Part shown: piece after piece, positions 28,550 through 36,167 of the stretch
How the letters are laid out: each line of letters begins with the position of its first letter
Numbering within the stretch: the stretch's first letter is position 1
Assembly: GCF_030064895.1 (NCBI RefSeq)
Contig: NZ_JASJEB010000087.1
Coordinates: 1-36,440, forward strand
DNA: 36,440 nucleotides
Direction of reading: 5' to 3'
Origin: Crocosphaera sp.
GTDB lineage: Bacteria > Cyanobacteriota > Cyanobacteriia > Cyanobacteriales > Microcystaceae
The notes under the pieces: generated by a model
Database searches by the model: none
Told to the model about the DNA's origin: nothing
What the model saw: only the letters and a program-made list of their open reading frames with translations
Position numbers and translations under genes: made by a program

Positions 28550-28571
28550 TTCAGTTTCTGGTGGGCAATAC

Positions 28572-28682
28572 TATAGCACTTCTCATACTTGTGAGGTACA
28601 GAGTTTTCTAGTTTTAGGAGTTCGGAGTTCGGAGTTCGGAGTTAGATATTAGGTGTACCTCATGAGTCCGAGAAAGGCTATA
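28572..28682. mobile_element. MITE-like palindromic element, copy 1 (111 bp)
   Basis: The left end TATAGCACTTCTCATACTTG leads to TGAGGTACA. The right end is GTGTACCTCATGAGTCCGAG followed by AAAGGCTATA. The ends are imperfect inverted repeats of about 30 bp (TATAGC...GAGGTACA against TGTACCTC...GCTATA). The interior contains a GAGTTCGG tandem (28617-28644). Copy 2 at 29427-29513 shares both ends but has a different interior. There is no coding sequence, so any transposition would depend on a transposase elsewhere. Confidence 0.75.
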
Positions 28683-28726
28683 TTAGGACATAATAATATT
28701 ATGTCATTACAAATAAGTTCTTGTAG

Positions 28727-28747: not shown

Positions 28748-28854
28748 TCTTCGTAATTTTCCCACAATCTAAACTTGATTGCCGTATTAACAAAACCTTC
28801 TAAATATTGCCCACCTAAATTTTATTGATTGTAACAATCCCAGGAAAAATAATT

Positions 28855-29307
28855 ATGGAAACAGTAAAAAATCTTTATGAGACAGACTTTAACCTTTGGT
28901 TAGAAGAAACTGCTAGATTGTTAAAAGAAAACAATTTTGAGCAATTGGATATTGAAAATTTAATCGAAGAAATAGAAGCAATAGGAAGAAGTGAAAAGAA
29001 AGGATTTCGTAGTAATCTAGAAATATTATTACTGCACCTTTTAAAATGGAAATATCAACAAAATAAACGGTCAGGTAGTTGGAAACGTTCTATTATTGAA
29101 CATCGAAATAGGATATTAGACGAATTACAAGACAGTCCCAGTTATAAACCATATTACGAGCAAATTTTTGATAAATGTTATAAAAACGCCAGAAAATATG
29201 CTGAAGCAGAAACAGGTTTATCTATCAAGACGTTTCCTGAAATTTGTCCCTTTTCTAAAATAGAAGTTTTAACCATTGATTATATTCCCCAAGATGACAA
29301 GAATTAA
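28855..29307 (+). CDS. DUF29 family protein (second copy)
   Basis: About 150 aa from the ATG at 28855 (METVKNLYETDFNLWLEETA), with AGGA at 28842-28845 as ribosome site; a TTG ten codons upstream is less likely. It shows the DUF29 landmarks LDIENLIEEIEAIGRSEKKG, HLLKWKYQQNKRSGSWKRSI and YYEQIFDKCYKNARKYAEAE, with the conserved central tryptophan. It is a clear but diverged paralogue of the protein at 5573-6031. Function unknown. It is bracketed by two copies of a MITE-like element, one on each side, which makes it a candidate for having moved or been exchanged as a unit. It is separated from mysA by a 539-bp gap. Confidence 0.85.
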   Translation: METVKNLYETDFNLWLEETARLLKENNFEQLDIENLIEEIEAIGRSEKKGFRSNLEILLLHLLKWKYQQNKRSGSWKRSIIEHRNRILDELQDSPSYKPYYEQIFDKCYKNARKYAEAETGLSIKTFPEICPFSKIEVLTIDYIPQDDKN

Positions 29308-29426: not shown

Positions 29427-29513
29427 TATAGCAGTTCCCATACTTGTAAGGTACACAGGTAATCGCTTTAAGGCAGGAGACAGGTGTACCTCATGAGTCC
29501 GAGAAACGCTATA
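29427..29513. mobile_element. MITE-like palindromic element, copy 2 (87 bp)
   Basis: The left end TATAGCAGTTCCCATACTTG leads to TAAGGTACA. The right end is GTGTACCTCATGAGTCCGAG followed by AAACGCTATA; its first 20 bases are identical to copy 1. The interior is unrelated to copy 1. ATATA is present on both sides and could be a target duplication. It lies in the 539-bp gap before mysA. Confidence 0.75.
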
Positions 29514-29594
29514 TACCTGGACTGTTTCTTGCTGCATACAATATTTTTCCTTTCAAAGCAAGAGATAAAATGACGAATAATAAAGTTTTTTTAA

Positions 29595-29846: not shown

Positions 29847-31169
29847 ATGGTTCAAGCAAAACCGTTAAATGATAAAACTGCTTCTGAATCCAATCAGATT
29901 ATTCAGTTTAATCACCCTGTAAAATACCGCACGTCCGAGTGGTACACCGGACACGGTGAAATTGTTGCTAGTGGAGATAATCGTTCCTTTGAAGTATCAG
30001 CCAGTTATAACCTAAAAGCCACTGTTAAGTTGGTTAACGACGTATTAAACCCAGAAAATCCAACTTTAGCCGAAATTTATAGTAGTCTCGGCCGTTGTGT
30101 TGCCATTGTTGATCTCACCATTGATGAACTATACGGCGAAGCAATCCGTAAATATTTTGAGTATCACGAAATTTCTTTAGAATTATACCCTTGTCGTGCT
30201 TGGGAGTCCGATAAAACCCCCGAAACCGTCAATAAAATCCTTTCTTATTTAGGCAAAGATGGTTCCGATGTTTCCCGTAACGAACCCGTATTAGTCATGG
30301 GTGGTGGTGTTTTAAGTGATGTAGCCGGTTTAGCTTGTGCGCTGCAACACAGACGTACCCCTTATGTCATGATCGGAACAACGGTTATTGCTGCCATCGA
30401 TGCAGGACCTTCTCCTCGTACTTGTACCAACGGCAGTCAGTTCAAGAATAGTATGGGTGTGTATCATCCCCCAGTTTTAACTTTGGTGGATCGTACCTTC
30501 TTCCGTACCCTAGAAACCGGTCATGTCCGTCACGGGATGTCTGAAATTATCAAAATGGCGGTTACCGATGATCCCGTTTTGTTTGAATTAATGGAAAAAT
30601 ACGGGGCCCGTTTAGTAGAGACCCATTTTGCTACTTTAGTAGACGATGCAGAACTTTCTGAAATTGCCGATGAAGTAATTTATCGCGCTTTATTCTCCTA
30701 TATGAAGCACGAAGGGACAAATATGTTTGAGACCTATCAGGATCGTCCCCATGCTTACGGACACACCTGGAGTCCTCGCTTTGAACCCGCAGTTAAATTA
30801 ATGCACGGTCATGCAGTATCCATTGGTATGGCTTTCGGTGCCAGTTTAGCAGCAGAAATGGGTTGGTTATCAATAGCAGATCGCGATCGCATTATTGGCC
30901 TTTGCACCTCTATGGGTTTATCTGTTTATCATCCCATCCTCGAAGACATGGACATCATGTTAGAAGGACAGAAAAATATGCGTCGTAAGCGCGGAGAAGG
31001 TGGACTTTGGGCCCCCTTACCAACTACCATTGGCCAATGCGACTACGCCCAAGACGTTTCTTCTGGGTTGTTACAAAAAGCTGTGGAACACCATAAAGCA
31101 TACTGTACTTCTTTGCCATCGGGCGGAAAAGGCGAGGAAATGTATCTCAGCGATCTCGGTTTAGCGTAA
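29847..31169 (+). CDS. mysA: 2-epi-5-epi-valiolone-type cyclase, demethyl-4-deoxygadusol synthase (MysA)
   Basis: The first MAA enzyme, a sugar phosphate cyclase related to dehydroquinate synthase that acts on sedoheptulose 7-phosphate with NAD+ and a divalent metal. The NAD-binding glycine motif is VLVMGGGVLSDVAGLACALQ (148-167). The MAA-type substrate region is DAGPSPRTCTNGSQFKNSMG (185-204). Metal ligands probably come from RHGMSEIIK (Glu233), PHAYGHTWSP (His302/306) and MHGHAVSIG (His320/322). The GPSPRTCTNG pattern separates it from dehydroquinate synthase. At 440 aa, with an N-terminal part (about 1-45) before the Rossmann domain, it fits the family. It has a good AAGGA site and lies 12 bp before mysB. 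MAA synthesis is usually induced by UV or high light; no such site could be assigned here. Confidence 0.93.
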   Translation: MVQAKPLNDKTASESNQIIQFNHPVKYRTSEWYTGHGEIVASGDNRSFEVSASYNLKATVKLVNDVLNPENPTLAEIYSSLGRCVAIVDLTIDELYGEAIRKYFEYHEISLELYPCRAWESDKTPETVNKILSYLGKDGSDVSRNEPVLVMGGGVLSDVAGLACALQHRRTPYVMIGTTVIAAIDAGPSPRTCTNGSQFKNSMGVYHPPVLTLVDRTFFRTLETGHVRHGMSEIIKMAVTDDPVLFELMEKYGARLVETHFATLVDDAELSEIADEVIYRALFSYMKHEGTNMFETYQDRPHAYGHTWSPRFEPAVKLMHGHAVSIGMAFGASLAAEMGWLSIADRDRIIGLCTSMGLSVYHPILEDMDIMLEGQKNMRRKRGEGGLWAPLPTTIGQCDYAQDVSSGLLQKAVEHHKAYCTSLPSGGKGEEMYLSDLGLA

Positions 31170-31181
31170 GAAAAATTAATT

Positions 31182-32015
31182 ATGAGTCAATTATTAACTA
31201 CTCCTCCAGCAGCAAGACCGGTCACCCCCTTGGGTATTCTAGTGGAAAAACTAGAAAGTACCCTTAAATTAGCGGAAACTGAGGCTGTTTCACCCTTTTT
31301 ATTAACTGCCTTACAAGAGGTAGAAGCCTTAGCATCGGGTCTAGATCCGTACCTAGACGACTGTACCACAGAAGAATCAGCAGCTTTAGCCAACTTAGCC
31401 AAGAAAACGGCAGAAGAAGACTGGAGCAAGCGTTTTTCTGACGGGGAAACAGTACGTCAGTTAGAACAGGAAATGTTGTCCGGTCATATTGAAGGACAAA
31501 CCCTAAAATTCTTCATTTCCATGATGGGTGCAAAACGTATCTTGGAAGTGGGAATGTTCAGTGGTTATTCTGCTTTAGCGATGGCCGAAGCGTTACCGGA
31601 GGACGGTTATTTGCTCGCTTGTGAGGTTGATCAATATGTGGCTGACTTTGCTCGCACTTGTTTTGATCAGTCCCCTCATGGCAGCAAAATAGACATCAAG
31701 GTCGCTCCTGCCTTGGAAACTATGCAAGTCTTAGCAGAGACTCAAGAATGCTTTGATTTAGTGTTTATTGATGCTGATAAGGCAGGCTACATTGACTACT
31801 TCAAACTGCTGTTAGAGAGCAATTTATTAGCTCCTGGGGGCATTATCTGCGTGGATAACACCTTGTTGCAGGGACAACCCTATTTACCAGCGCAACAACG
31901 CACACTCAACGGAGAAGCGATCGCTCGTTTTAACCGTTTTGTGGCGGATGATGACCGTGTGGAACAGGTATTATTACCGTTGAGAGATGGTTTAACTCTG
32001 ATCCGACGCAAGTAG
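31182..32015 (+). CDS. mysB: O-methyltransferase MysB (4-deoxygadusol formation)
   Basis: A 277-aa SAM-dependent O-methyltransferase which, with MysA, converts the cyclised product to 4-deoxygadusol. After an N-terminal helical region of about 110 residues, the class I SAM fold shows motif I ILEVGMFSGYSALAMAEALP (120-139), the acidic ACEVD (about 146-150) at the ribose, FDLVFIDADKAGYIDYF (metal-binding aspartates) and GGIICVDNTLLQG. This is the caffeoyl-CoA-type family, in which a divalent metal positions the substrate hydroxyl. It begins 12 bp after mysA and so is co-transcribed with it. A perfect hairpin follows its stop, which may lower expression of the downstream genes relative to mysAB. 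Confidence 0.93.
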   Translation: MSQLLTTPPAARPVTPLGILVEKLESTLKLAETEAVSPFLLTALQEVEALASGLDPYLDDCTTEESAALANLAKKTAEEDWSKRFSDGETVRQLEQEMLSGHIEGQTLKFFISMMGAKRILEVGMFSGYSALAMAEALPEDGYLLACEVDQYVADFARTCFDQSPHGSKIDIKVAPALETMQVLAETQECFDLVFIDADKAGYIDYFKLLLESNLLAPGGIICVDNTLLQGQPYLPAQQRTLNGEAIARFNRFVADDDRVEQVLLPLRDGLTLIRRK

Positions 32016-32022
32016 TTGGATG

Positions 32023-32048
32023 AAACCCCGTTATTAACAACGGGGTTT
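32023..32048 (+). terminator. Perfect hairpin between mysB and mysC
   Basis: AAACCCCGTT (32023-32032) pairs completely with AACGGGGTTT (32039-32048) around a 6-base loop. The stem starts 7 bp after the mysB stop. Only three T follow directly, so it is either a weak terminator that lets some transcription through or an mRNA-stabilising processing site. Any effect on mysAB versus mysC dosage is inference. Confidence 0.55.
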
Positions 32049-32108
32049 AACAATTGACTCATGAATCACATCTAACACACTCCTCACACTCTTTTTTTTT
32101 CATCAGTG

Positions 32109-33434
32109 ATGATTGCTTTATTGAAGACTATCGCTACCTTGGGATTACTTTTGGTTGTTTTCCCAATTAATCTTTTGGTTGTTTTTCTATCCCTGATTAT
32201 TAGTTTTTTGATGGCACCTTTTTCTAAAAGAAAGGTAATCAAAAATCCTAAGAAAGTATTATTAACGGGGGGCAAAATGACAAAATCTTTACAACTTGCC
32301 CGTTGTTTTTATAATGCTGGACATGAGGTTATTTTAGTAGAAACGGATAAGTATTGGTTGTCTGGACACCGCTTTTCTAGAGCAGTTAAGGGTTTTTATA
32401 CCGTTCCTGCACCAGAAAAAGATCAAGAAGGATACTGTCAAGGATTATTAAATATTGTTCAACAAGAAAACATTGATATTTTTATTCCTGTCTCTAGTCC
32501 TGTTGCTAGTTATTATGATTCCGTTGCAGGTAACTTATTAGCCGAACATTGCGAAATTATGCACTTTCAACCTAACATTACTAAGATGTTAGATGATAAG
32601 TTTGAATTATGTGAACAAGCACACCTATTCGGTTTATCTGCACCCCAAGCTTTTCTAATAACAGATCCTCAACAAATTCTTGATTTTGACTTCAAAAATA
32701 ATCAAGGAAGAAAGTATCTTTTAAAAAGTATTAAGTACGACTCTGTTTCTCGCTTAGATATGACAAAACTTCCCTTTGAAGGGATGGAAAAGTATATTAA
32801 AAATTTGCCCATTAGTAAAGATAAACCTTGGGCAATGCAAGAATTTATTACAGGGAAAGAATATTGTACTCACAGTACAGTTAGGAAAGGAAAAATTAGG
32901 CTACATTGTTGTTCAGAATCTTCTCCTTTTCAAATAAATTACGAACATATTGATAAACCAGAAATTTACAATTGGGTAGAAAAATTTGTTAAAGAATTAA
33001 ACCTAAGTGGACAAATTTCTTTTGATTTTATTCAAGCAGAAGATGGTACAGTTTACCCCATCGAATGTAACCCTAGAACTCACTCAGCTATCACCATGTT
33101 TTACAATCATCCAGGTGTTGCTGATGCCTATCTAAAAGATGCTGAAAACGAAGAAAAAGCCATTACTCCATTAACTAATAGTAAGCCCACTTATTGGCTA
33201 TATCACGAGATTTGGCGGTTAACAGGGATTCGTTCTATATCAGATTTTCAAGCTTGGATCAAGAAAATTACCACAGGAACAGACGCTATTTTTCAACTTA
33301 ATGATCCCTTACCATTTTTAATGAATCCTCATTGGCAAATTAGTTTATTATTAATGCAAAATTTGCGCCCATTAAAAGATTGGGTAAAAATTGACTTTAA
33401 TATTGGTAAATTAGTGGAAATAGGTGGGGACTAA
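32109..33434 (+). CDS. mysC: ATP-grasp ligase MysC (mycosporine-glycine synthase)
   Basis: Joins glycine to 4-deoxygadusol, using ATP, to form mycosporine-glycine. The N-terminal ~38 residues are strongly hydrophobic (LLKTIATLGLLLVVFPINLL and VVFLSLIISFLMAPF), consistent with one or two membrane segments. A pre-ATP-grasp domain follows (VLLTGGKMTKSLQLARCFYN). The ATP-grasp core shows KYLLKSIKYDSVSRL, WAMQEFITGKEYCTHS and SFDFIQAEDGTVYPIECNPRTHSAI, where the Glu and Asn near the end bind Mg-ATP. I chose ATG 32109 over the GTG one codon upstream. No clear ribosome site is seen; a T-run precedes it. About 441 aa. The stop is immediately followed by a GAGTTCGG repeat. Confidence 0.92.
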   Translation: MIALLKTIATLGLLLVVFPINLLVVFLSLIISFLMAPFSKRKVIKNPKKVLLTGGKMTKSLQLARCFYNAGHEVILVETDKYWLSGHRFSRAVKGFYTVPAPEKDQEGYCQGLLNIVQQENIDIFIPVSSPVASYYDSVAGNLLAEHCEIMHFQPNITKMLDDKFELCEQAHLFGLSAPQAFLITDPQQILDFDFKNNQGRKYLLKSIKYDSVSRLDMTKLPFEGMEKYIKNLPISKDKPWAMQEFITGKEYCTHSTVRKGKIRLHCCSESSPFQINYEHIDKPEIYNWVEKFVKELNLSGQISFDFIQAEDGTVYPIECNPRTHSAITMFYNHPGVADAYLKDAENEEKAITPLTNSKPTYWLYHEIWRLTGIRSISDFQAWIKKITTGTDAIFQLNDPLPFLMNPHWQISLLLMQNLRPLKDWVKIDFNIGKLVEIGGD

Positions 33435-33435
33435 T

Positions 33436-33475
33436 CGGAGTTCGGAGTTCGGAGTTAGGAGTTCGGAGTTCGGAC
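33436..33475 (+). repeat. GAGTTCGG tandem immediately after mysC
   Basis: Five to six imperfect units of CGGAGTT/GGAGTTA (CGGAGTTCGGAGTTCGGAGT, then AGGAGTTCGGAGTTCGGA) begin 1 bp after the mysC stop codon. Same family as 66-83, 2760-2780 and 28617-28644. Confidence 0.9.
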
Positions 33476-33578
33476 TTAGAACTTTGTTAAGTAAAGACTC
33501 ACTATTTGAGACTTTTTATTTTGACAAGTTGTCTATAAATTTCCTTATATCGAACTCAGGTTGATAAAAAAATTTGTA

Positions 33579-33600
33579 GGGTTTTAATAATATTAAGCCC
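33579..33600. repeat. Hairpin repeat upstream of the symporter gene
   Basis: GGGTTTTAATA pairs with TATTAAGCCC with one wobble. The flanks (TTTGTAGGG...CCCCTAG) resemble the GTAGGGGTTTAACA repeat at 28727-28747. It lies 33 bp before the symporter start. Confidence 0.6.
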
Positions 33601-33633
33601 CTAGAAAAGACTAAATTTAACCCTAAAATAATA

Positions 33634-35061
33634 ATGGTCGAGCAACTGGGAATTATCATTACATTCATCTTTTTTCTGCTGTTGTTTACAGGGGTAGGAA
33701 CCTATTCAGCAACTCAGAAAAAAGCCACCACCACTGACTATTTATTAGCCAGTCGTAGCGTTAACCCTTGGTTAACCGCCCTTTCAGCTATGGCAACAGG
33801 GCAAAGTGGTTTATTATTCATCGGACAAGTGGGTTTTGCCTATAAAATTGGCATTTCCACTATCTGGCTAACCATAGGTTGGGCAATCGGTGATTATCTC
33901 GCCTGGTGGTTAGTTTTTCAACCCCTGAGACAGCTTTCTGAAGAAACCTCATCAGAAACAGTTTCAGCATTTCTCGCCCAAAATATCAAAGGATATCGCC
34001 TTATTTCCCTAATTTCTGCCCTTATTACCCTAGCATTTCTTGGTTCCTACGCCGCAGCCCAACTGGTAGCCGGTAGCAAAGCCTTAAATACAGTGTTTGG
34101 TTGGAATTATAACTTAGGCATTATTATCGGTGCTATTATTGTCGTTATTTATTGCTTTTCTGGGGGCATTCGTGCTTCAATCTGGACAGATGCCCTACAA
34201 GGAATATTAATGTTAGGTTCCCTATTACTGTTATTAGTGGTAGCAGTGGTTAAATGTGGTGGTTTTCCTAACTTATGGCAATCTTTAAACAATATTGACC
34301 CAAATTTAGTCAATTTTAGTCCTCAATCTCTACCTTTAGGCTTTATACCTTTCCTTATCGGTTGGATGGTTGCCGGGTTTGGAGTTATTGGCCAACCCCA
34401 TATTATGGTTCGGGCCATGGCCATCGACTCGGCCAAAAATCTTGGTTTTGCCCGCAACTTGAAAACCAGTTTAGGGTTGATCAACTCCTTCTCTGCGTTG
34501 GGTATCGGGTTAACCGCAAGGGTATTACTCCCAGACTTGGGTTCATCTGGTGATCCCGAGTTAGCTTTACCCTATCTTTCCTTGGAATTGTTACCAGTCT
34601 TCTTAGTCGGTTTGATCTTAGCCGGATTATTTTCTGCAACCATGTCCACCGCAGACTCTCAAATATTATCTTGTTCAGCAGCTTTGACACAGGATATTTT
34701 TCCCCAGATGTCTAAGTCCTATAATTTTGCCAAAATAGGAACTTTGAGTGTTACTGGGATTGTTTTAGTCATTGCCCTCGCTGGAGATAATAATGTCTTC
34801 GCCTTAGTTACCTTTTCTTGGTCTATCTTAGCCTCTGGTTTGGGTCCATTATTACTGGTGAAAGTCTGGCAACAGCCTATAAATACTGTAGGTGCGATCG
34901 CTATGATGATCGTCGGGATGACAACCGCTTTGACTTGGAAGTTAGTTCTTAACCTATCCGGTGTCATCTATGAAGTGTTACCCGGTATGGTTGCAGGAAT
35001 AGCTGTCTATGGGGTTTATAGATTGTTTTTAGGGGAACAGGGAATAGGCAACAGGCAATAG
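33634..35061 (+). CDS. PutP-like sodium:solute symporter (SSS family) inside the MAA cluster
   Basis: A 475-aa inner-membrane transporter with 12-13 hydrophobic helices. It is close to the PutP (Na+/proline) branch: FIGQVGFAYKIGIS, CFSGGIRASIWTDALQGILM, GQPHIMVRAMAIDSAK (252-267) and FSATMSTADSQILSCSAALTQDIF (333-356) align with PutP landmarks. The MST at 337-339 matches the Ser/Thr of the sodium site. The PutP Asp55 position (GASDMSGW in PutP) reads MATGQSGL here, so that aspartate is replaced by glycine (about residue 56). It lies between mysC and mysD, 199 bp and 83 bp from them, on the same strand. It may import an amino acid used by MysC or MysD, or move an MAA; neither is shown. The last ~9 residues (EQGIGNRQ) are encoded by a dispersed repeat. 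No clear ribosome site. Confidence 0.88.
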   Translation: MVEQLGIIITFIFFLLLFTGVGTYSATQKKATTTDYLLASRSVNPWLTALSAMATGQSGLLFIGQVGFAYKIGISTIWLTIGWAIGDYLAWWLVFQPLRQLSEETSSETVSAFLAQNIKGYRLISLISALITLAFLGSYAAAQLVAGSKALNTVFGWNYNLGIIIGAIIVVIYCFSGGIRASIWTDALQGILMLGSLLLLLVVAVVKCGGFPNLWQSLNNIDPNLVNFSPQSLPLGFIPFLIGWMVAGFGVIGQPHIMVRAMAIDSAKNLGFARNLKTSLGLINSFSALGIGLTARVLLPDLGSSGDPELALPYLSLELLPVFLVGLILAGLFSATMSTADSQILSCSAALTQDIFPQMSKSYNFAKIGTLSVTGIVLVIALAGDNNVFALVTFSWSILASGLGPLLLVKVWQQPINTVGAIAMMIVGMTTALTWKLVLNLSGVIYEVLPGMVAGIAVYGVYRLFLGEQGIGNRQ

Positions 35062-35129
35062 TATCGCTCTATTTTCCACACATTAGTTGATTTTTAATTA
35101 ATTATCCATTATCCATTGTCCATTATTAA
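35032..35129. repeat. Two short tandem repeats between the symporter gene and mysD
   Basis: 35032-35061 is a GGAACAGGGAATAGGCAACA-type tandem that supplies the symporter's final codons and stop. 35102-35129 is a TTATCCATTATCCATTGTCC-type tandem just upstream of the mysD ribosome site. Both types look like cyanobacterial dispersed intergenic repeats. With the GAGTTCGG tandem after mysC they enclose the transporter gene. Confidence 0.75.
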
Positions 35130-35144
35130 TCAGGAGATTTAACC

Positions 35145-36167
35145 ATGTCAGTTCTTCATATTCTTCATTTAGTAGGTTCGGCTGAAAATGAGTTTTATTG
35201 CGACTTATCTCGTCTTTATGGCAAAGAATGTGTTGAAGCAACCGCTAACACTTCCCGTTATCGTTTTTCTATTGCTTATGTGACTCCCGATCGCTTATGG
35301 CGTTTTCCCACATCCCTAAGCAGAGAAGATATTAACGCAGCCAAACCTTTATCCTTATCTCAAGCGATACAGTGGATCACAGAACAACATATAGACTTAG
35401 TGTTGCCTCAGATGTTTTGTCTAGCTGGAATGACTGAATATCGGGCATTATTTGACCTTCTCAACATCCCTTATTTGGGCAATAAAGCCGAGTTGATGGC
35501 TTTAACTGCACATAAGGCCAAAGCTAAGGCGATCGTTGCTTTAACGGGAGTTAAAACCCCTTATGGGGAACTATTGCGCAACAGTGACACCCCAAACTTG
35601 CGCCCACCAGTGATTATTAAACCTGCAAACTCTGATAACTCTTTAGGGGTAACATTGGTTAGAACAATGGATGAGTATGAGGCAGGGTTAAAAAAAGCTT
35701 TTCAGTATGCAGATGAAGTGTTAGTTGAGGAATATATTGAACTGGGAAGAGAGGTGAGATGTGGCACCATTGTTAAAGATGGTGAATTGATTAGTTTACC
35801 TTTAGAAGAATATGCAGTTAACAAAGAAAATAATCCTATTCGTAATTATGAGGATAAACTGAAAAGAGATAATACAGGAGAGTTAACCTATGCTGCAAAA
35901 GATAAGAAAAAAGCTTGGATAGTTGATATAAATGATCCAGCAACTAGACGAGTGCAAGAAATAGCTAAACAGTGTCATCAAGCGTTAGGTTGTCGTCATT
36001 ATAGTTTATTTGATTTTCGTATTGATTCCCAGGGACAACCCTGGTTTTTAGAAGCCGGTTTATACTGTTCTTTTTCTCCTAAAAGTGTAATCCCAATGAT
36101 GGCACAAGCAAAAGGTATTTCTCTAGATGAGTTATTAGAAATAGCCATTAAAGAAGCAATGAGTTAA
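35145..36167 (+). CDS. mysD: D-Ala-D-Ala-ligase-like MAA ligase MysD
   Basis: An ATP-grasp ligase that condenses mycosporine-glycine with a second amino acid (serine gives shinorine, threonine gives porphyra-334). The N-terminal SVLHILHLVGSAENEFYCDL and RYRFSIAYVTPDRLWRFP are MysD-like. The ATP-grasp core has PPVIIKPANSDNSLGVTLVR (Lys159 and the glycine-rich loop), EVLVEEYIELGREVRCG (191-207) and YSLFDFRID with FLEAGLYCSFSPKSVIPMMA, where Asp290 and Glu303 bind Mg. The GLYCSFSPKSV end replaces the NTMPG of true D-Ala-D-Ala ligases, so peptidoglycan function is unlikely. AGGAG lies 9 bp before the ATG. At 340 aa it is complete. It is the last gene of the cluster; a hairpin follows. Amino-acid preference cannot be read from the sequence. 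Confidence 0.92.
   Translation: MSVLHILHLVGSAENEFYCDLSRLYGKECVEATANTSRYRFSIAYVTPDRLWRFPTSLSREDINAAKPLSLSQAIQWITEQHIDLVLPQMFCLAGMTEYRALFDLLNIPYLGNKAELMALTAHKAKAKAIVALTGVKTPYGELLRNSDTPNLRPPVIIKPANSDNSLGVTLVRTMDEYEAGLKKAFQYADEVLVEEYIELGREVRCGTIVKDGELISLPLEEYAVNKENNPIRNYEDKLKRDNTGELTYAAKDKKKAWIVDINDPATRRVQEIAKQCHQALGCRHYSLFDFRIDSQGQPWFLEAGLYCSFSPKSVIPMMAQAKGISLDELLEIAIKEAMS

Follow-up and report, generated by a model that had tools for sequence, protein, structure and literature searches.

Within a 36,440-nucleotide contig of Crocosphaera sp. (NZ_JASJEB010000087.1 of assembly GCF_030064895.1, positions 1 to 36,440; hereafter the window), a sodium:solute symporter (SSS) gene lies between mysC and mysD in a gene cluster for mycosporine-like amino acids (MAAs). 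The encoded protein has the SSS fold with conserved Na+-site residues, and it belongs to a clade, here called SSS2, which occupies a position in mys clusters and co-occurs with mys genes among genomes. We put the probability at about 0.5 that SSS2 serves the MAA pathway as a dedicated uptake carrier driven by Na+, the cargo of which would most likely be leaked or exported MAA. To our knowledge, little is known about the placement and retention of MAAs in cyanobacteria. A conserved symporter tied to the pathway is a target for knock-out, by which MAA retention and location become directly testable, and it may be relevant to the manufacture of sunscreens, in which it is important how much product escapes into the medium or can be recovered from there.

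The distribution of the symporter was analyzed in 388 genomes sampled from the order of the window (Cyanobacteriales), and the same set was scanned for both genes: the symporter was counted in 72 genomes (E <= 1e-100) and mysB in 170 (E <= 1e-80). Weaker or broken copies, such as the SSS2 pieces of L160 described below, escape these thresholds. In a tree, 81 symporters were compared with Escherichia coli PutP, which separated SSS2 (67 rows; branch support of 99 in the Shimodaira-Hasegawa-like approximate likelihood ratio test, SH-aLRT) from a sister clade, SSS1 (14 rows). In this tree, a neighbouring mysB, mysC or ligase gene was present for 50 of the 67 SSS2 rows and absent for 17 (linkage of the free rows was judged inside the stretch fetched), whereas none of the 14 SSS1 rows was near any of them. 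A second tree with ten rows added was again split into SSS1 and SSS2 by one branch (99). Both were quick trees with SH-aLRT support only and several long branches, and the E. coli PutP root is very distant. Copies that were broken, cut by a contig edge or fetched later were assigned to a clade by best match, with thin margins for loci L130, L132, L151 and L153 and for L183-L185; all three of L183-L185 group with SSS1 in the second tree.

SSS2 was present in 63 of the 388 genomes, and mysB was detected in 61 of them. In the two genomes in which mysB was not counted (G630 and G640), SSS2 is immediately preceded by mysC, and the contig ends there. Among the other 325 genomes, mysB was found in 109 (Fisher test for SSS2 and mysB, 8e-23, with kinship ignored). 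A mys context of SSS2 was observed in 51 of the 63 genomes, comprising 46 in which SSS2 follows mysB on the same strand within 7 kb and five others; mysC lies one or two genes upstream of SSS2 in G505, G562, G630 and G640, and in G651 SSS2 is at a contig edge ahead of an EamA gene and a ligase gene. The remaining 12 genomes carry SSS2 outside a mys cluster, and mysB was present elsewhere in all 12; one of these, G529, has one SSS2 copy on the mys contig, approximately 9 kb upstream of mysB, and in another, G392 (L022/L114), SSS2 comes after a MysD-like gene (30%). SSS1 was found in 16 genomes, eight with mysB, and seven of those eight also hold SSS2. When SSS1 genomes without SSS2 were considered, mysB was present in one of nine, against a base rate of 170/388; SSS1 shows no tie to mys. 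Thus, every genome in which SSS2 was detected also has mys genes, whether linked to it or not, and its sister clade is not so confined, which suggests that its cargo is best sought inside the pathway, as an MAA or the glycine adduct.

This division was also examined outside the order in a class-level sample of 388 genomes (E <= 1e-130), which gave 12 strong matches, seven of them from other orders. The prediction set beforehand was that the three at 63-66% identity would be SSS2 accompanied by mysB and the four at 56-58% would be SSS1 with no tie. Clade and mysB were as predicted in all seven genomes; the four absences of mysB rest on a single threshold (1e-60) in genomes some of which are incomplete or contaminated, and for three of the four SSS1 assignments the best-match margin is thin, so that the clade is taken from the tree.

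Close relatives were collected by scanning a genome collection with the symporter, which returned 21 loci, 18 cyanobacterial (64-92% identity) and three remote (26-32%). The first-pass annotation of the window had proposed a comparison of gene order among mys loci, and the order indeed recurs: the symporter is in line with mysA, mysB and mysC in 10 of the 18 cyanobacterial loci. Among these 10, mysD is present in seven loci of Crocosphaera, SU3 or BG0011 and in L019, a divergent ligase (39% to mysD) is present in L017, and an NRPS-like (nonribosomal peptide synthetase-like) gene replaces mysD in L016 (Xenococcaceae). The genomes of the remaining eight loci (L011-L015 and L020-L022), checked individually, all contain mysB, and three of them are among the 12 genomes with unlinked SSS2. 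That annotation had considered a dedicated transporter in an MAA cluster as not standard and had listed the absence of an SSS gene beside mys in all relatives among the points that would speak against its idea. The dedicated SSS gene is real, but with SSS2 in the mys cluster in 51 of 63 SSS2 genomes it is no local oddity. The ratio of nonsynonymous to synonymous substitution rates (dN/dS) of the SSS gene was 0.075-0.124 against seven relatives, similar to the values of mysC (0.13) and mysD (0.09) against one of them, and the gene is under purifying selection. Neither mysB nor the symporter was detected at the thresholds used in G624, a genome of the same genus that is 89% complete. In L160 (G613, same family), broken pieces of SSS2 at 73-889 directly follow mysC at a contig end.

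Of the 170 genomes that hold mysB, 61 carry SSS2 and 109 do not; the gene for glucosylglycerol-phosphate synthase (TIGR02398) was present in 22 and 8 of these, respectively (Fisher, 5e-6, with kinship ignored). This pattern gives weak support to a link of SSS2 with sodium-rich habitats, and only weak because the window's genome and G587 are without the gene.

The symporter protein of the window belongs to the SSS family (PF00474, 229.9 bits against a cut-off of 22.8; 6e-68). Its AlphaFold model (pLDDT 84.8, pTM 0.86) matched SGLT2 (TMq 0.85), SiaT (TMq 0.81) and vSGLT in Foldseek, in agreement with the LeuT-type fold of the family. A54 and A335 correspond to A53 and A337 of PutP, which we take to be Na2-site positions. 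S338 and T339 correspond to the Na2-site pair S340/T341 of PutP (PMC3866251). A335, S338 and T339 are present in 81 of 81 alignment rows, and the A54 column contains Ala in 60 rows, Ser in 20 and a gap in one. The protein is 30% identical to E. coli PutP, and TIGR02121 (PutP) gives its best NCBIfam score, 284.8 bits, yet below the cut-off of 515.5. Further, Asp55 and Tyr248, called crucial in E. coli PutP (PMC7918813), are replaced by G56 and V251, and neither Asp nor Tyr occurs at these positions in any of the 81 rows. Accordingly, the earlier label "PutP-like" is right as to kinship and doubtful as to function. Ser57 and Tyr140 of PutP are retained as S58 and Y139, each in 79 of 81 rows; the equivalent of Tyr140 is described as kept only in proline-type carriers in a study of Helicobacter PutP (PMC3866251). 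Whether PutP Trp244 aligns with W244 depends on the placement of a three-residue gap. The core transmembrane domain (cTMD) 6 region is three residues longer than in PutP.

Asp55 and Tyr248 are also missing from SSS1, and thus their loss predates the tie to mys. Ten positions, each more than 80% conserved per group, distinguish SSS1 from mys-linked SSS2, and three of them are in cTMD1 (G56, Q57 and L61); since the cTMD1 differences came from a scan of all columns, they are a description and not a test. Residues of cTMD1 and 6 bind the substrate in SSS carriers (PMC7918813). SSS1 proteins (e.g., L116 and L118) are free-standing PutP-like symporters with Ala-His in cTMD1 where SSS2 has Gly-Gln.

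The five genes of the window are arranged as follows.

29847-31169, + strand: mysA, desmethyl-4-deoxygadusol synthase of the 3-dehydroquinate (DHQ) synthase-like family, 440 aa, with a match to PDB 5tpr
31182-32015, + strand: mysB, O-methyltransferase by family profile, 277 aa
32106-33434, + strand: mysC, ATP-grasp ligase (PRK06849), 442 aa, which adjoins mysAB in relatives
33435-33633, + strand: mysC-SSS gap of 199 nt, with heptamer repeats at its start and no terminator-like site on the + strand
33634-35061, + strand: SSS2-clade sodium:solute symporter, 475 aa, by PF00474, predicted structure and clade
35145-36167, + strand: mysD, by its D-Ala-D-Ala ligase C-terminus and by relatives

As first annotated, all five are on one strand, with intact open reading frames (ORFs). 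The window contains mysA, mysB, mysC and a second ligase, the set that defines an MAA gene cluster. The match of mysA to PDB 5tpr, presumably the Anabaena enzyme of the mysA step, was 6e-93, and mysC, which starts with GTG followed by ATG as the next codon, scored 547 bits with PRK06849 (cut-off 406). The genes are separated by 12, 90, 199 and 83 nt, in order, and may be co-transcribed. A terminator-like site on the + strand was found neither between mysC and the SSS gene nor between the SSS gene and mysD, in a scan that as a whole was at chance level; promoter and terminator scans gave no more than chance.

The first-pass annotation had taken repeats on both sides of the SSS gene as marks of its insertion into an ancestral mysABCD order. 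Repeats are indeed near both gene ends, but those on the right, which begin at the SSS gene end and continue beyond it, differ in sequence from those on the left, where a heptamer-built array spans 33434-33493. A 14-mer from the left array has 212 copies in the genome (118 + 94, overlaps included), compared with none for its reversed control. Because the left array is genome-wide and the right repeats are of another sequence, the repeats are uninformative on insertion; further, SSS2 follows mysC by as little as approximately 10 nt in other genomes, and we therefore rejected the insertion. Upstream of mysA, a DUF29 gene (28825-29307) is flanked by two repeat copies that form inverted arms (28569-28685 and 29427-29514).

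Cluster anatomy was compared in 48 linked loci (45 plus L103, L112 and L131) using ORFs of at least 100 aa, with neighbour family names resting on one member per sequence cluster. The gene before SSS2 was mysC in 37 loci, an EamA gene in five, a second methyltransferase in four and another gene in one, with a contig edge in one. A D-Ala-D-Ala-type ligase followed SSS2 in 19 loci, an EamA gene in 12, an NRPS gene in four and another gene in 11, with an edge in two. The mysC-SSS gap ranged from 10 to 1001 nt and was shorter than 100 nt in 22 of 37 (counted with the stop codon and from the first possible start). Within 9 kb, 31 loci had a D-Ala-D-Ala-type ligase, 11 an NRPS gene and 20 an EamA gene. 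Neither kind of ligase was nearby in 12 of the 48 loci, and in eight of these the sequence continues for at least 4.8 kb beyond SSS2. SSS2 thus also occurs without MysD or MysE nearby (in these eight loci), suggesting that its presence depends on mysC and the pathway and not on a second ligase.

The EamA/DMT-family transporter forms one sequence cluster (e.g., L086:6149-7126) and often adjoins SSS2. It was present in 20 of 48 linked loci, compared with one of 22 mys loci classed as free of SSS (L134-L142 and L155-L167), in a rough count made by eye in which L160 carries the broken SSS2 pieces, several loci are cut short and L133, with its cluster split, is excluded. Where SSS2 lies elsewhere in the genome, two of six mys clusters (L187-L192) have an EamA gene.

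We consider that mysABC(D) would make the solute and that SSS2, a Na+ symporter that by the family mechanism would carry its cargo inward, would retain MAA in the cell or bring it back from the periplasm; the EamA-family transporter of the same cluster could be the outward arm in some lineages. It is possible, at somewhat less than even odds, that SSS2 is a Na+-coupled MAA importer returning leaked or exported sunscreen and that, with an EamA partner, MAA cycles between the cytoplasm and the periplasm or sheath. As SSS2 lies beside different ligases and also without MysD or MysE nearby, its cargo should be common to all, and mycosporine-glycine or the common MAA core is the most likely candidate. 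If the cargo were a common amino acid, the carrier would be expected to benefit non-producers as well, whereas SSS2 was found only in mys genomes.

Several observations weigh against such an importer. SSS2 was not detected, at the threshold used, in 109 of the 170 mysB genomes, and thus MAA production is possible without it. The counts of SSS2 and mysB take no account of shared ancestry. The hoped-for position next to mysC was seen in none of the three SSS2 genomes outside the order: SSS2 lies approximately 1 kb upstream of mysA in G827, approximately 12 kb upstream in G860, and on another contig in G715. The retained Ser57 and Tyr140 of PutP hint at an amino- or imino-acid cargo. Finally, the search of the window's genome gave no close relative of PutP other than the symporter, and a proline dehydrogenase gene is present there as well.

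The kinship to PutP (TIGR02121, 284.8 bits), the two retained residues and the sole close PutP relative despite a proline dehydrogenase make import of an amino acid for the pathway, most plausibly glycine for MysC, the main rival, and mysC precedes SSS2 in 37 of 48 loci. We nevertheless regard it as rather unlikely, since an importer of glycine or serine would not be expected to be confined to MAA makers even when unlinked, and cyanobacteria synthesize their own glycine. Import of the amino acid used by MysD, suggested earlier as one role, is unlikely as a general one, because SSS2 also occurs in clusters with no second ligase nearby. Of the roles suggested earlier, MAA retrieval and supply of the MysC substrate are the two that may apply.

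That SSS2 is an ordinary proline or osmolyte permease which sits in mys clusters by chance would agree with its being the sole close PutP relative in a genome with proline dehydrogenase elsewhere. Co-occurrence and the residue tests lower this reading to an improbable one: all 63 SSS2 genomes of the order have mys genes, seven also carry an SSS1 copy, and Asp55 and Tyr248 of PutP are G56 and V251. Export of MAA by SSS2, or its shift into another compartment, is likewise improbable; in 28 of 48 SSS2 loci there is no EamA gene and MAA, if it leaves actively, needs another exit, but the conserved Na2-site residues suggest inward Na+-coupled flux, and the secretion envisaged in the first-pass annotation is unlikely for a Na+ symporter. 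Although SSS domains are known in sensor kinases (PMC7918813), it is very unlikely that a protein of 475 aa with SSF as its sole Pfam match chiefly senses, e.g., osmolarity for the pathway or regulates it.

An importer of self-made MAA would have parallels among carriers of compatible solutes, the cargo of which, for glucosylglycerol and glycine betaine, is known, unlike the cargo proposed for SSS2. The glucosylglycerol carrier is of the ABC (ATP-binding cassette) class, unlike SSS2. In cyanobacteria, compatible-solute carriers are reported to serve chiefly to prevent leakage, and no organism other than betaine producers was found to have one of the glycine-betaine systems (PMC4390839), the same logic as proposed here, in which a self-made solute is recaptured. 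MAAs are described as osmolytes in Nostoc flagelliforme (PMC13131328). With PutP (SSS family, TC 2.A.21), SSS2 shares the fold, the Na2-site residues, the S57/Y140 equivalents and its best NCBIfam score. It differs in low identity and score, the replaced Asp55 and Tyr248, the longer cTMD6 region and its genomic context, since E. coli putP adjoins putA whereas SSS2 is tied to mys genes.

The window resembles the mysABCD or mysABCE clusters of the Nostoc/Anabaena type in the order of mysA to mysC and in the ligase afterwards, but the symporter follows mysC; other SSS2 genomes often have in addition EamA, PanD, a second methyltransferase or an NAD-binding dehydrogenase. Transporter genes have been reported in mys clusters of Brasilonema strains (PMC9918943) and Hyella patelloides (PMC8472315), as in the window, with the type unnamed in the available portions of these papers. 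A survey of 131 unique MAA cluster windows reported HAD and TauD genes (PMC11888242), and MAA clusters of Subsection V are described without a transporter in the available part of PMC4558948. The term "symporter" is absent from the main text of each of these four papers and from those of PMC7693272, PMC10510106, PMC12967839, PMC4675709, PMC8073705 and PMC13131328. We found no named MAA carrier in the literature searched, which covers few subscription papers, so that a report may exist elsewhere. In the Brasilonema genome that holds L015, the mys cluster (L187) consists of mysABC and a ligase, and neither EamA nor SSS2 was seen within 13.7 kb, unlike the Brasilonema clusters of PMC9918943.

Additional genes recur in mys clusters. 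Nine of the 48 linked loci encode a PanD-like aspartate decarboxylase (e.g., L087:12592-12945; the one tested matched PF02261 at 2e-47), often between mysB and mysC, and this enzyme could supply beta-alanine for unusual MAAs. A COMT-type O-methyltransferase (e.g., L088:4802-5854) and a 3-hydroxyisobutyrate-dehydrogenase-like protein (e.g., L100:5985-7118) are each encoded in nine of the 48 loci, and a TauD-type oxygenase, represented by L142:6783-7949, in three. Tandem pairs of SSS2 genes or pieces occur in the mys clusters of L081, L082 and L093, and two mysC-like genes lie in tandem in those of L162, L164 and L165.

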